A DNA stretch of 64,000 bases from Thermanaerosceptrum fracticalcis (lineage in GTDB: Bacteria > Bacillota > Peptococcia > DRI-13): assembly GCF_000746025.2 (NCBI RefSeq), contig NZ_CP045798.1:2489001-2553000 (forward strand). The letters are read 5' to 3'. Position numbers and translations under genes: made by a program. The notes beneath the pieces were generated by a model, which saw only the letters and a list, made by a program, of their open reading frames with translations, was not told where the DNA came from and made no database searches. This document shows positions 18,040-52,395 of this stretch, piece by piece. The first letter of the stretch is position 1. The number at the start of each line of letters is the position of its first letter.

Positions 18040-18237
18040 TTAAACTAATGATGCCTGGTCACTGTCAAAATCCTCTACAAGATACAAATGGCGTTCTTTT
18101 TTATCCGGAGCAAGGGAACACTTATTTGTCCAGGTTTTATCTCCCAAATTTTCACCGCAATAAGGGCATTTCCAATCGGGATCATCATAAGCGGAATAGG
18201 AATTTCCCCCGCAAGCAGGACATGTTTTTTTAATCAT
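18040..18237 (-). CDS. Small zinc-ribbon protein
   Basis: A 65-residue protein with two CPxC knuckles: CPACG near residue 8 and CPYCG near residue 24. A third cysteine and a Lys/Asp-rich tail follow. The spacing of the two pairs matches a treble-clef or rubredoxin-like zinc ribbon. It converges with the GerPC-like gene, and an imperfect hairpin lies between their stops. No specific function can be assigned. Confidence 0.6.
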   Translation of the reverse strand: MIKKTCPACGGNSYSAYDDPDWKCPYCGENLGDKTWTNKCSLAPDKKERHLYLVEDFDSDQASLV

Positions 18238-18299: not shown

Positions 18300-19969
18300 G
18301 CAAAAAAGACAATAACGAACTAGCAGATGCAAGTTCATGCATCTGACGGATTAATCCTTCTGGAGGATATAACTGTTAGACAGCTTACTGGACTTCTCTC
18401 ACCTCCAGACCGAGTTTTTTAGCTTCGGCAATAATTCTTTTTACACGGAATTTTTCCTGTTTTTGTTTAGCTTTTTCAAAGGATGTCTCGTCGTAGTCAA
18501 CATCTTTCTTCAATAAGTTGTAAATGATCACGAGGAGCTTTCTGGCTAATGCAATGAGAGCTTTCTTGGCCCCGCGGCGTTGTTTTATCTTCCAGTACCA
18601 AGACGATAAATAGCTATCGCGTATTCGGGTGATGCACCAGGCAATTTCGCAAAGGATTCGTTTTAGATAGGTGTTGCCATGGGTGGTACGGGTGGACTTT
18701 TTTTTCCTGCACTTTCATTATTACCAGGACTTAAGCCCGCCCAGGAACAGATATGTTCCGCGGTTTTGAATCGGCTCATATCAATGCCGATTTCCGCCAA
18801 GATTGCAGCAGCGGCGGTTTTGTCAATCCCCGGGATGCCGTCCAGTTGCTCCAGTTGTCTTTGATATTGCTTGAGTTTTTCCTCAAGCTTTTGCTCTACC
18901 TGGTGAAGATGCTCGTAGTGCTGATCCAGCCACCCTAGCAAAAGCTTGAGGAACTCCCTTTGGTGAACATCCATTTTACCATTGACAGCCTGTTTGATCT
19001 CATGGAGCTTGCTCTTAGCGCGCCCCTTTACAAATGTTTCTACTTCGCGGGCAGATATCTTCCCGTAGCAGCAAAGGTGATCTATAATTGCTCGGCCTGA
19101 TACGCCGAATATATCGGTGAGAAATGTTGACAGCTTAAAGCCGCAGCTTTGTAAGTGCTTTTCAATCCGATTTTTCTGGGAAGTAATTTCCTCGACGATG
19201 CTTTTACGGTACCGGGTCAGATTACGGAGTTCCCGGATAGGTTTCGAGGGGATAAAACTTCCTTCTAACAATCCGGCACGCAAGAGAGTGGCTATCCATT
19301 CAGCGTCCTTCATGTCGGTCTTTTTGCCAGGAACATTCTTCATGTGCCGGGCGTTGGTAACAATCAAAACCATACTGCCGTCAAAGGCTTCTTCCAGTAC
19401 GTTATATACAGGCTGCCAATAAACACCAGTACTTTCCATAGCCACATTCCGGCAGTTTTCCTCTTCCAGCCAGGCTTTTAGTTCATCAAGTCCAGCAAGA
19501 AGGGTGGAAAAAGTGCGGATGGTTTTAACTGGTTCCCCGTCAACATTGCCTTTTAATAAGCAGGCGACAACAGTTTCCTTGTGGACATCAAGACCACAAC
19601 AAATTTCCAGAATGTCTTGCATACGACTCACTCCTGCTCCAATGGATTTCAGGGATGATTGCCCGAGAAAATATGGAGTTTAGTACCCGTGCTGTTCCCA
19701 AGTCCTTAAAAACAAGGGGCGACAATTGGCCGTGCTCAAAGGCAATCAGGTTAGGTTTTTAGTCGAGGTTATACCATCAAAATACAATCAACCTTTGTCC
19801 CTGATAATTCCAATGTAGCAGAAAATTAGACCATTGTAATCACTTCTACATATTTTCATAATTGGTTGTGCCTTCTAGGCATGGGTGGTTTTTAGGATGT
19901 TTTTAGTAGATTATATGTGCCGCATCCCCCGGGCTGTTACTGTTGGATTGTGAATGGAAAAATAATAAG
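18300..19969 (-). mobile_element. IS110-family insertion sequence (approximate limits)
   Basis: The transposase plus its non-coding flanks. IS110 elements have no clear terminal inverted repeats, so the ends are estimates. The 340 bp upstream of the transposase start (19632-19969) contain no gene; in the IS110 group this region normally encodes the bridge RNA that pairs with target and donor DNA. I see T-rich and GC-rich patches but cannot assign the guide loops by eye. Confidence 0.6.
18385..19631 (-). pseudogene. IS110-family transposase with a frameshift in an A8 tract
   Basis: The N-terminal RuvC-like DEDD domain is intact: CCGLDVHKETVVA, AMESTGVYWQPVY and DMKDAEWIATLL. So are the coiled coil and the start of the Transposase_20 domain (GIPGIDKTAAAAIL, WAGLSPGNNESAGK with the catalytic Ser). 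Eight A on the minus strand at 18705-18698 then shift the frame, giving a stop at 18663. The remainder (STRTTHGNTYLKRILCEIAW ... VREVQ) continues in the -1 frame to 18385. Restoring one A gives a normal protein of about 420 residues. It is either dead, a homopolymer sequencing error, or expressed by slippage on the A tract. Confidence 0.88.
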
Positions 19970-20020
19970 AAGCAATACAAACGCATAGAATGCATTCATA
20001 TTGCCTCATCGGGCTTTACT
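19970..20020 (-). terminator. Hairpin of the GTAAAGCCC...GGCAATA family
   Basis: On the minus strand GTAAAGCCC is followed by GCAATA..AATGCAT / ATGCGTT..TATTGC and a T-rich tract. The same element with compensatory changes occurs at 41623-41680 and 42301-42358. It lies directly behind the small gene 20041-20148 and probably terminates it. Confidence 0.6.
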
Positions 20021-20040: not shown

Positions 20041-20148
20041 CTAATACAATAAATACATCACTACACTAATAAAAGATATAATCAGAGCACCAAAAACCAA
20101 GACTTTCACGTAATCATTAGATGGGGGAAGGCCTTTCTTTTCTCTCAT
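20041..20148 (-). CDS. 35-residue membrane peptide behind a c-di-GMP-I riboswitch
   Basis: MREKKGLPPSNDYVKVLVFG continues as a hydrophobic helix and ends MYLLY. The ATG is preceded by AAGGAGAAC at suitable spacing. The polar N-terminus and a single transmembrane helix make it a typical small membrane protein. It is the first open reading frame after the riboswitch terminator, about 115 bp downstream, so it is the likely riboswitch target. No family recognised; the reading frame is short, so coding status rests on the ribosome site and context. Confidence 0.55.
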   Translation of the reverse strand: MREKKGLPPSNDYVKVLVFGALIISFISVVMYLLY

Positions 20149-20262: not shown

Positions 20263-20411
20263 AAAAAACCCTGTTTTAGGAATCACCAAAACAGGGGTAA
20301 AGTCTGACTTCACCCTGGTTACCGGCAACCCGACCATCATGGCCCCCGCAAGGACTTTAGACTCGTGGCTTTGCGTCCCTGGCTTTCGCCAGGTTTGCCT
20401 TTATCAGTGAT
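20263..20411 (-). ncRNA. c-di-GMP-I (GEMM) riboswitch with terminator
   Basis: On the minus strand the conserved core is present in order: AAAGGCAAACC, a stem closed by a GAAA tetraloop (CTGGC-GAAA-GCCAG), GGGACGCAAAGCC, a second stem, then GGGTTGCCGG. An expression platform follows: CAGGGTGAAGTC can pair with GACTTTACCCCTG (antiterminator). The alternative is the terminator CCCTGTTTT...AAAACAGGG with six T (20297-20263). The switch reads toward the 35-residue peptide gene and, beyond it, IS110. Whether ligand turns expression on or off cannot be decided by eye. Confidence 0.88.
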
Positions 20412-41488: not shown

Positions 41489-41618
41489 ACGCAAACCCGC
41501 CTTTTATATAGCCATACTTTCATTAATAGAAACTGGTTCCTTAGTGTCCGTCGAAAACAGGACTTTGCAGCGCCCCATCAACTGGTAATCCCCCAGGGCA
41601 GCCGTTTTTTTATAAAAA

Positions 41619-41705
41619 TTAAAAGGCAATACAAATGCATAACACTAAAAATGCACTCGTATTGCCTCCAGGGGCTTTACTCTTCTTATTAATTTTTTCA
41701 TCCAA
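41619..41705 (-). CDS. Candidate 28-residue peptide downstream of the Com-like gene
   Basis: TTG start with an ideal AAGGAGGT site nine bases upstream, encoding MDEKINKKSKAPGGNTSAFL and a short hydrophobic end. The 3' half coincides with the covarying hairpin, so the sequence may be conserved as RNA rather than protein. Copy 2 (42246-42383) has the same start but reads through to 45 residues. Coding status uncertain. Confidence 0.3.
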   Translation of the reverse strand: MDEKINKKSKAPGGNTSAFLVLCICIAF

Positions 41706-41922
41706 AAAAAGGTACCTCCTTAATTATAATTTCATTCTAATAAGGTTTTTTTCAAATAGCAATATTGTTGCCAATTATTCTATATAAAATTAACAATTAA
41801 TGCAAATTATGTTTAACTATTATCTTACCTCCACTCCTACGACACCGTTCGTTTTAATAATCATTAACCGCTTACATTTGTTACATTTGATCTCAATGTT
41901 GGGCCCTTTAACAATACAAATA
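41623..41922. repeat. 300-bp direct repeat, copy 1 (Com-like unit)
   Basis: Matches 42301-42600 at a constant offset of 678 bp. The first 242 bases are identical, then a single mismatch, then divergence sets in inside the coding part near 41920. It contains the 3' half of a Com-like gene, its 3' region and the GTAAAGCCC/GGCAATA hairpin. Confidence 0.93.
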
Positions 41923-42005
41923 AGTTTGTTACACAGACACCTCTCTTCTTCATCATTAAGCAGCTTAAAATCATCAAAATCAACTTTACTTACATCCAAA
42001 TCCAT
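41820..42005 (-). CDS. Com-like zinc-ribbon protein, copy 1
   Basis: A protein of about 61 residues with the pattern ERCLCNKLICIVKG...IEIKCNKCKRLM. This is the Cys arrangement of the Mu Com/zinc-ribbon family (small translational or DNA-binding regulators in phages). The C-terminal 40 residues are essentially identical to copy 2, while the acidic N-terminus (DLDVSKVDFDDFKLLNDEEE) is unrelated. GGAGGG abuts the ATG at 42005, so the real start may be the TTG six bases further in. It lies next to an IS110 remnant and has no riboswitch of its own. Confidence 0.65.
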   Translation of the reverse strand: MDLDVSKVDFDDFKLLNDEEERCLCNKLICIVKGPNIEIKCNKCKRLMIIKTNGVVGVEVR

Positions 42006-42061
42006 CCCTCCAGATTTATATTTTGTTACTATATAAAATATTTTCCATATGGTCCAAGTTA

Positions 42062-42240
42062 GTAGCATTTGTTGGTATCAACCCTCACAATCCGGAGAGT
42101 TTACAGGTACTCGTAATAAGATGTCAAAACGAGGTTCCCCATATCTTCGGCGTGCTATATGGATAGCTGCTGCCGTAGCTGCTTTTAACGATCCTGTTCT
42201 TTCTGAGTTTTATCTGAAAGAAATCGATACACTCGACTGC
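42062..42240 (+). pseudogene. C-terminal fragment of an IS110-family transposase
   Basis: On the plus strand, AFVGI, a frame slip, then PSQSGEFTGTRNKMSKRG and SPYLRRAIWIAAAVAAFNDP lead to FYLKEID. This is the typical end of an IS110/IS1111 Transposase_20 domain. Start, catalytic DEDD domain and true end are missing. It belongs to a different IS110 subgroup from the element at 18.4-19.6 kb and separates the two copies of the Com-like unit. Confidence 0.83.
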
Positions 42241-42245
42241 TTTAT

Positions 42246-42383
42246 CTACGTGCAGATCCCTGGGAAGTCCTGTGCTATCAACCCTCCCCCAGTCATAAAT
42301 AAGGCAATACAAATGCATAACACTAAAAATGCACTCGTATTGCCTCCAGGGGCTTTACTCTTCTTATTAATTTTTTCATCCAA
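42246..42383 (-). CDS. Candidate 45-residue peptide, copy 2
   Basis: Same AAGGAGGT-TTG start as copy 1; reads KAPGGNTSAFLVLCICIALF as one hydrophobic helix, then runs into the remnant IS110 sequence and stops. The first 25 codons are identical to copy 1. It may be the original form of the peptide, or an open frame without function that covers a terminator hairpin. Confidence 0.3.
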   Translation of the reverse strand: MDEKINKKSKAPGGNTSAFLVLCICIALFMTGGGLIAQDFPGICT

Positions 42384-42600
42384 AAAAAGGTACCTCCTTA
42401 ATTATAATTTCATTCTAATAAGGTTTTTTTCAAATAGCAATATTGTTGCCAATTATTCTATATAAAATTAACAATTAATGCAAATTATGTTTAACTATTA
42501 TCTTACCTCCACTCCTACGACACCGTTCGTTTTAATAATCATCAACCGCTTACATTTGTTACATTTGATCTCAATGTTGGGCCCTTTAACAATACAGATC
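42301..42600. repeat. 300-bp direct repeat, copy 2 (Com-like unit)
   Basis: Second copy of the unit at 41623-41922 (offset 678). It is followed upstream on the minus strand by a c-di-GMP-II riboswitch, which copy 1 lacks. Confidence 0.93.
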
Positions 42601-42698
42601 AGCTTGTTGCATAAACACCTTTCCTGTTCATATATGATTAAATCACAATGATCGGCGTCTTCTTTTTTTATCTCCAATTTCACCTCTCCAAATATCAT
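42498..42698 (-). CDS. Com-like zinc-ribbon protein, copy 2, riboswitch controlled
   Basis: A 66-residue protein with the same C-terminal zinc ribbon as copy 1 (ERCLCNKLICIVKG...KCNKCKRLMIIKTNG) and a different N-terminus (KLEIKKEDADHCDLIIYEQ). The ATG at 42698 has only a weak ribosome site; a TTG seven codons in has GGAGAGG at good distance. It lies 48 bases after the terminator of a c-di-GMP-II riboswitch, so its expression should respond to the second messenger. Com of phage Mu activates translation of a DNA modification gene; no such partner gene is visible here. Confidence 0.65.
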   Translation of the reverse strand: MIFGEVKLEIKKEDADHCDLIIYEQERCLCNKLICIVKGPNIEIKCNKCKRLMIIKTNGVVGVEVR

Positions 42699-42745
42699 AG
42701 CTTCTGCTCGCTTTCTTTGTTATATTGTTAAAACGAAGAACCCAT

Positions 42746-42850
42746 AAAAAAAAACCGTACAGGGATCATACCCGTACGGCCGGTTGCACTATCAGCTCCA
42801 TACAGTTCAAGTGCCCAATTACAAACTGTACTTCTACGCTTCCGCATCCC
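42746..42850 (-). ncRNA. c-di-GMP-II riboswitch with terminator
   Basis: Minus-strand core in order: GATGCGGAAGC, GTAGAAGTACAG, TTGGGCACTTGAACTGTA, GAGCTGATAGTGCAACCG, GCCGTACGG. GGGCACUUG...GUGCAACCG is the diagnostic pseudoknot region of class II. The 3' strand that closes P1 (CCGTA with TGCGG) is also the left arm of the terminator CCGTACGGGTATGATCCCTGTACGG followed by nine T (42754-42746). Ligand binding should therefore favour read-through (ON switch); this is inference from the overlap. The rest of the gap 42851-43242 shows only AT-rich sequence with no gene. Confidence 0.87.
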
Positions 42851-43198
42851 TTTTATTGACAAAAAAAGTTAGATGAAGTTAGACATTAATACTGTTCGTT
42901 GGATTATAAATTTTTCCTTTATTTTTTTTTCGAATTTTTCTGATATAACATGTCATATCTCGACTAAATTTTTATATATTTAAGATTCAGCTCAAACTCT
43001 GTTAAAACAACAGCCGTACTCTTCAGCTCTGTATGTATAAAATAACAATATAAAAATCTCCCTGTTATAACAATATCTTTTGCTAACTTGTCAATGACAA
43101 ATTGTTGTCATAAAACCGTGACAAATATGTAATAGATTTCCTGGGGAAGCTAAACTTCATACCAATCATTCCTTTAATTTTTCAGGATGAAAGTTGGA

Positions 43199-44530: not shown

Positions 44531-44776
44531 AACAAAAAAGCAGCTTACGAGCACTTCCCGCAAGCTGCTTCATAAGGCAAAGGTCTGCCCCTGCCCTGCT
44601 GTACGAAATAGCGCTCCACCCAAAAAATATTGGGTGACAGTCTTGTGCTTATTCAACACAAGCCCAGCAAAGGTCCCCGGCCTGAAAACCTTCACTTCGG
44701 CGGCCATTCCTTTCCGTACCCGTCATCGCCGGCCTGCTCCCGATACGTACTCATAATATGCCGCGCCTCTACCATT
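44531..44776 (-). ncRNA. Lysine riboswitch (L box) with terminator
   Basis: On the minus strand: GGTAGAGGCGCG, GAGTACGTAT, GGAAAGGAATGGCCGCCGAAG, GCTGGGCTTGTGTTGAATAA, GACTGTCACC and TGGAGCGCTATTTCG. These are the ordered conserved blocks of the five-stem lysine aptamer. It is followed by a terminator GAAGCAGCTTGCGGG...CGTAAGCTGCTTTTTTG (44571-44531), eight bases before lysA. High lysine should close the aptamer and stop lysA transcription. Confidence 0.95.
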
Positions 44777-44786
44777 AATTTATTCT

Positions 44787-52071: not shown

Positions 52072-52395
52072 AAATGTCTCGTCCTTAGGACACATGAGCA
52101 TGTGTCCTAAGGACGAGACATTTTCCCGTAGTACCACCTTAATTCTCTATTGGTTCACACCAATAGATTCAGCGAGTCTAAAGCTGCAGCTTTAACTCGC
52201 GCCAGGTAACGGTGGCCTATATGTCCGGCATAGTTTACTAAGAATAACTCCGTTCAACACAGCAGCTCAGGAGTGATCATTATATACCCATTTATCACCG
52301 GCTCTCAACAGCTGCCAGCTTTCTGTAGATAAATTGTGGTATTTTTCTCTCCGTCAAAACTTTTATCCCTGTTATAGATTTTTCCTTTGGATGAT
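52072..52395 (-). ncRNA. T-box leader of ilvA
   Basis: The T-box sequence AAGGTGGTACTACGG lies at 52140-52126. It is followed by a very stable terminator TGTCTCGTCCTTAGGACACA and its complement (52122-52072) with a T tail; the antiterminator would form with the T-box bulge. Upstream are Stem I elements (GAGAGCCGGTG). A candidate specifier codon ATC (Ile) is at 52277-52275 in ATGATCACTCCTGAG, which fits ilvA. Uncharged tRNA-Ile should allow read-through. Confidence 0.92.

Follow-up and report, generated by a model that had tools for sequence, protein, structure and literature searches.

Terminator/antiterminator pairs under protein control include those of LicT/SacY with the ribonucleic antiterminator (RAT), PyrR, TRAP and HutP, and RNA-dependent antitermination of polysaccharide operons is represented by EAR (exopolysaccharide-associated RNA) in Bacillus, LoaP and RfaH/ops. 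Control of exopolysaccharide (EPS) genes by cyclic di-GMP (c-di-GMP) is usual. The zinc-ribbon protein Com has been described chiefly from one phage, in which it activates translation of a DNA-modification gene. Systematic evolution of ligands by exponential enrichment (SELEX) gave CC(N)2-3GAG as its target, placed in a hairpin loop with a C-G closing pair and often present twice (PMC6483171). Here we describe a locus of Thermanaerosceptrum fracticalcis in which a class II c-di-GMP (c-di-GMP-II) riboswitch stands before a Com-like gene at the head of an EPS cluster. The analysed stretch (the window) comprises 64,000 nucleotides of contig NZ_CP045798.1 (positions 2,489,001 to 2,553,000), and coordinates given without a locus name are positions within it. 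The riboswitch, the Com-like genes, the Com-type hairpins described below (Com boxes) and the EPS cluster all lie on the minus (-) strand. We propose, with slightly better than even confidence, a two-step RNA switch in which c-di-GMP turns on a Com-type RNA-binding protein and this protein acts at the terminators of envelope operons.

The riboswitch was detected as a full-length match to the Rfam c-di-GMP-II model RF01786 (42852-42769, model positions 1-84 of 84), scoring 69.7 bits where the gathering cut-off is 53.5 bits, with an E value of 1.4e-13 in the window. A sequence-only reading of this DNA had described a class II c-di-GMP aptamer and suggested a covariance search at this place; the search returned a significant match at 42769-42852 and bore the assignment out. 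The riboswitch is present as a single copy in the 3.8-Mb genome. Its P1 helix comprises about 5 bp (UGCGG/CCGUA), with the outer P1 positions mostly unpaired, and the P1 3' strand (42779-42775) is at the same time the start of the left arm (42779-42771) of an intrinsic terminator (42746-42781). In this terminator, CCGUACGGG-UAUGAU-CCCUGUACGG forms the hairpin and a run of nine T (42754-42746) comes after it, and a terminator scan ranked it as the strongest terminator-like site within 40.7-43.2 kb. Sequence and fold indicated that P1 and the terminator are mutually exclusive; the double use of the P1 strand, which the sequence-only reading had also pointed out, agrees with the sequence, the fold and the scan. 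As the P1 3' strand doubles as terminator left arm, the ligand is expected to prevent termination, and the riboswitch is predicted to be an ON switch that allows read-through with c-di-GMP.

The open reading frame (ORF) behind this terminator begins with ATG 42698, 47 nt past the T tract, and has 66 codons, in agreement with the size and spacing reported earlier. However, the TTG at 42677 is the likelier start, because GGAGAGG lies 5 nt upstream of it and a duplicate gene is arranged in the same way and equally long; the Com-like gene would then occupy 42498-42677 and encode 59 residues. The second Com-like gene (41820-41999, also 59 residues from TTG) has no riboswitch of its own, and its product is 80% identical to the first, with the differences mainly in the first 20 residues. 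A 300-nt block containing the 3' part of the gene and the downstream hairpin is duplicated with 99% identity (41623-41922 vs. 42301-42600), and an IS110-type transposase remnant lies between the two copies on the plus (+) strand (42049-42290; PF02371, E 3.2e-7).

The relationship of the encoded protein to phage Com was evaluated at the level of the family. The window protein itself matched the PHROG Com profile with an E value of only 0.029, and no match was obtained in Pfam up to E 1 or in NCBIfam; as it falls under the curated Pfam cut-off, it is termed Com-like rather than a Pfam member. An hhalign comparison between an alignment of 31 relatives and six phage Com proteins gave 97% with an E value of 5.4e-11. 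Moreover, PHROG Com matched 26 of the 31 relatives, and Pfam Zn_ribbon_Com (PF10122) matched 8 of them (best E 3.1e-4). The CxxC of the second zinc knuckle is kept, and the first knuckle has CxC plus an extra cysteine. By these comparisons the window protein is remotely related to phage Com, as the sequence-only reading had supposed. A sequence search of solved structures found no match for the Com-like protein, and an AlphaFold model with four core strands (mean predicted local distance difference test score 64.5) yielded no significant fold match and was set aside. Among open-licence papers, none was found that joins c-di-GMP-II riboswitches with zinc ribbons or that names the Pfam Com ribbon. 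The Com-like genes of the relatives are chromosomal (gene names in relatives are our reading of translations); in the KCNKCKR subfamily, to which the window protein belongs, they mostly head EPS, S-layer or secretion genes, and in the KCRHCKR subfamily they form arrays with cytochrome and membrane genes.

The Com box was found by comparing the intergenic DNA behind Com-like genes in unrelated contigs, before the SELEX paper on Com was consulted. A conserved word, AAAG-YCC-N-GAG-RC-AAU, followed by a terminator, recurs there, and its consensus is the hairpin GYC-[C N1-4 GA]-GRC overlapping the terminator. Judged by its letters, the word is the SELEX hairpin of Com, as in GCC-[CCUGGA]-GGC. Within its 64 kb the window has three boxes and no more; all show N3 spacing between CC and GAG, and in each of them GGC forms the base of a terminator-like hairpin. 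Box 1 (GCC-[CCUGGA]-GGC, 42353-42342, within 42302-42356), directly behind the first Com-like gene, has hairpin arms at 42345-42329 and 42318-42302; the T tract of its terminator, next to the IS110 remnant, is degraded. Box 2 (41675-41664, within 41611-41678) stands downstream of the second Com-like gene, ahead of the EPS genes, and is joined to an intact terminator (hairpin 41667-41624, T-rich tail). Box 3 (GCC-[CGAUGA]-GGC, 20014-20003, within 19968-20017) is 21 kb away from the Com-like genes and likewise overlaps a terminator hairpin. It follows a small ORF (20041-20148) whose translation of 35 residues has one hydrophobic membrane-like segment and which stands under a c-di-GMP-I riboswitch (20321-20409; RF01051, 84.0 bits) with its own terminator; this ORF and its riboswitch, also on the minus strand, lie where the EPS cluster ends. 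Both a fourth exact box elsewhere in the genome (position 3070597) and a second box in the genome G003 lie inside coding sequence and were set aside.

In the other subfamily the box occurs in a tandem form, GUCCAGAGAC-UUUAA-GUCCAGAGGC, of which the second box shares its GGC with the terminator GGCCAGC...GCUGGCC. In the tandem loops a single base separates CC from GAG, which is less than the spacing found by SELEX. The linker (alignment A5) reads GACU-UUA-AGUC, a perfect 4-bp hairpin to which the first box of the pair contributes its 3' half and the second its 5' half, and through which the free RNA could hide both boxes. The middle pair of the box changes from C-G to U-A between genomes, and the terminator pairs covary. 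In Rfam 15, no family matched the element at gathering level in the Com-like loci searched, and matches at E up to 1 were at chance level. Com-like gene arrays of many Bacillota (loci L061-L065, L074, L075 and L020-L024) are interspersed with genes for small membrane proteins, multihaem-type cytochromes and formate-dehydrogenase-like proteins, and tandem Com boxes lie in the gaps.

Boxes of this kind flank Com-like genes across Bacillota, and the association was further evaluated across genomes. Within 250 nt of Com-like genes, the SELEX-type hairpin reached 4.4 times its density in the rest of the same loci (P 3e-15), compared with 0.6-fold for two control loops, although these counts include tandem arrays and are not independent. 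In the window's subfamily, 9 of 12 loci had a box at SELEX spacing, against 3.04 expected by random placement (0/2000 placements; 12/2000 with the wider spacing of 1-4). The corresponding single-hairpin test was not significant in the other subfamily, and the case for that subfamily thus rests on a tandem covariance model. This model matched 13 of 150 genomes, all 13 of which carry Com-like genes (present in 24/150; P 1.4e-12), with P 9e-6 for six genomes that had not been used in model building; both P values are optimistic owing to relatedness among the genomes. Furthermore, a terminator-like hairpin follows 46 of the 49 boxes near Com-like genes, but only 19 of 57 elsewhere in those loci, some of which are probably real unlinked sites. 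The GRC strand is common to box and terminator base in 33 of these 46. Unlinked tandem boxes precede nuo genes, a transporter, radical S-adenosylmethionine (radical-SAM) genes and other operons, as expected of a trans-acting factor.

Individual copies of such unlinked tandem boxes, at L192 (G083), L190 (G055), L194 (G139) and L191 (G047), were seen before nuo genes, a major facilitator superfamily transporter and a small membrane protein next to ftsZ. The exact box pattern had matches in 82 of 198 genomes, many of them likely by chance, and pattern counts alone were not used. With a short single-box model run on 196 genomes, only the best few places were real; six other top matches (G013, G116, G133, G082, G115 and G056) were inspected, found in or among coding ORFs rather than at terminators, and set aside.

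The sequence-only reading had found no obvious partner for the Com-like protein in the window. In fact, the Com-like gene and its duplicate, followed by the Com-type hairpins on terminators, stand at the head of a 20-kb EPS cluster (20535-41494; ten proteins assigned by Pfam, the rest from translations). Its genes include those for a cupin phosphoglucose isomerase, galU, a Cu-amine-oxidase-N protein, Wzy_C, Wzz, Wze/CpsD, CpsB, a sugar transferase, manC, gmd, fcl, galE, a phosphomannomutase and a MurJ-type flippase. In G003, galU/Wzy/Wzz follow the Com-like gene in the same order as here, and this synteny, together with a box, is kept in another family of the order. In L079 a Com-like gene likewise heads an EPS cluster that includes galU; in L082 it is followed by genes for a Wzz-like protein, a CpsD-type kinase and other polysaccharide functions. 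In addition, surface proteins are encoded beside it in L081 and G188, and SecA in Desulforamulus putei DSM 12395 (locus L084).

These findings are consistent with the following sequence of events. c-di-GMP would stabilise the aptamer, whose P1 would then take the terminator left arm, so that transcription enters the Com-like gene. The Com-like zinc-ribbon protein would in turn bind the Com boxes in nascent RNA. Because the GRC strand of each window box is the base of the terminator hairpin, holding the box would strip the bottom pairs from the terminator, beside the T tract, and read-through would be favoured. The candidate sites of action are those between the Com-like genes and the EPS cluster, the putative target, and the third box after the c-di-GMP-I-controlled small ORF.

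The generality of the link between riboswitch and Com-like gene was assessed in relatives. According to the sequence-only reading, its view would be refuted if Com-like genes elsewhere never occurred with the riboswitch, and this is largely what was observed: of 29 c-di-GMP-II loci examined in relatives, not one stands before a Com-like gene or has a box with terminator. The riboswitch looks like a recent addition at the Com-like locus, because no inspected c-di-GMP-II locus precedes such a gene and the syntenic relative has no c-di-GMP-II riboswitch, even at a low threshold. However, the unrelated genome of L082 contains a c-di-GMP-II riboswitch (L082 2257-2340) inside an EPS operon headed by a Com-like gene, 1.6 kb downstream of that gene. 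Moreover, a c-di-GMP-I riboswitch with terminator lies in G004 (L004 1793-1878), 119 nt after a Com-like gene and before a metallopeptidase-like gene. Given these two loci and the third window box after a c-di-GMP-I riboswitch, the pairing of c-di-GMP riboswitch and Com may be no accident.

Several observations weigh against the proposed switch. The riboswitch-to-Com link was seen in this genome only, with the syntenic relative lacking the riboswitch, and the first zinc knuckle is CxC where phage Com has CxxC. The window terminators are 16-17 bp long, so that they may be only partly weakened when the bottom 3-4 pairs are lost. Three of the 12 loci of the subfamily have no box, and about 3 of the 9 positive loci are expected by chance. 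In L081, L084 and G188 the box lies about 7 nt 5' of the terminator and does not overlap it. The mini-hairpin has just 3 bp, with pairs near-invariant in the tandem type, which makes covariation uninformative and leaves only the C-G to U-A change between genomes as support. In addition, the short single-box model lacks the strength needed to count boxes over whole genomes.

With regard to the direction of the effect, the main rival is a brake by promoted termination: the Com-like protein would bind the boxes and promote termination or block downstream translation, in a negative feedback on its own transcript and the next operon through which c-di-GMP lowers the target. The boxes lie directly 3' of the Com-like genes, a natural place for autoregulation, and the non-overlapping boxes of L081, L084 and G188 also fit; the GRC strand common to box and terminator base in the window and in the tandem type, however, implies that a bound box excludes the full terminator, and we regard a brake as unlikely. 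Less probable again is that the boxes serve another factor or a small ligand, with the Com-like protein merely a neighbour that the riboswitch controls for an unrelated purpose. Tandem boxes with the alternative hairpin GACUUUAAGUC in between do look riboswitch-like, and unlinked boxes exist, but the shape of the box equals the Com SELEX target, and every genome with tandem boxes carries Com-like genes.

Alternatively, the riboswitch might serve the entire EPS operon as its leader, or be a leader that has been displaced, with the Com-like gene as a passenger placed there by IS110 activity and duplication. The usual c-di-GMP control of EPS counts for this explanation, as do the riboswitch of L082, the IS110 remnant and duplication at the locus, and the relative without a riboswitch. 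However, the Com-like gene is old at this place, as its synteny in another family indicates, and between the riboswitch and the EPS genes stand two terminator hairpins that some factor must relieve; we judge this explanation unlikely, to about the same degree as a brake. A phage-derived Com controlling a phage or DNA-modification function, the connection suggested by the sequence-only reading, is very improbable. The family relationship to phage Com speaks for it; against it, no close relative of the Com-like protein was found in 50,697 phage records, no mom or methyltransferase gene lies near the Com-like gene, and relatives occupy conserved chromosomal contexts with EPS, S-layer or cytochrome genes, in envelope or respiratory loci.

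Beyond this locus, chromosomal Com-like zinc ribbons together with tandem or single Com boxes on terminators may constitute an undescribed RNA-based termination regulon of Bacillota, a proposal to which we give an even chance. It would cover envelope polysaccharide and S-layer operons in one subfamily and respiratory operons (e.g., cytochrome and nuo genes) in the other, and in T. fracticalcis it would be wired directly to c-di-GMP through the riboswitch. If true, the locus would represent a cascade from riboswitch to RNA-binding protein to terminator, a two-step switch for making a biofilm polymer, and a concrete mechanism by which c-di-GMP could switch a 20-kb EPS cluster in Gram-positive anaerobes. 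The data also suggest a role for Com relatives as regulators of the host in many anaerobic Bacillota, where they would have a recognisable RNA site placed on terminators. As the Com box is short and defined, binding, termination and the regulon are open to direct in vitro tests.

Other features of the window were also recorded. An IS110 transposase gene (18663-19631), whose protein is identical to that of a copy at about 3.072 Mb of the genome, is situated about 340 bp past the third Com box, which it may have severed from its target. A small double-zinc-knuckle protein is encoded at 18040-18237, downstream of the c-di-GMP-I riboswitch region, and resembles L060 691-918, which lies behind a c-di-GMP-II riboswitch in genome G082. 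A lysine riboswitch (44601-44779) and a T-box leader (52106-52366), both ordinary, are present on the minus strand.

Compared with its relatives, the c-di-GMP-II riboswitch is typical in its full-length match above the curated cut-off and in the competition of P1 with a terminator, but it has a Com-like target where relatives mostly control surface or secreted proteins. The Com-like protein has in common with phage Mu Com of the com/mom system (PHROG 13819, PF10122) a small zinc ribbon with the core RC-x-CNKL ... IEIKC-x-x-CK and a target hairpin loop CC-N-GAG with a C-G closing pair, and differs in its chromosomal location, the lack of a mom partner and CxC for CxxC in the first knuckle. Phage Com, on binding a small hairpin, opens an inhibitory stem beside it at the translation start; the switch proposed here would be parallel, but the window protein is predicted to act on terminators and thus on termination rather than translation. 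As in the systems of LicT/SacY RAT, PyrR, TRAP and HutP, the putative protein site overlaps one terminator arm, although both the protein family and the RNA site are unrelated. The putative switch would also share with RNA-dependent antitermination of polysaccharide operons the read-through of long EPS operons via an element near the 5' end; neither a NusG-type protein nor an EAR match is found here, and the predicted components are a zinc-ribbon protein and a local hairpin that has one strand in common with a single terminator.
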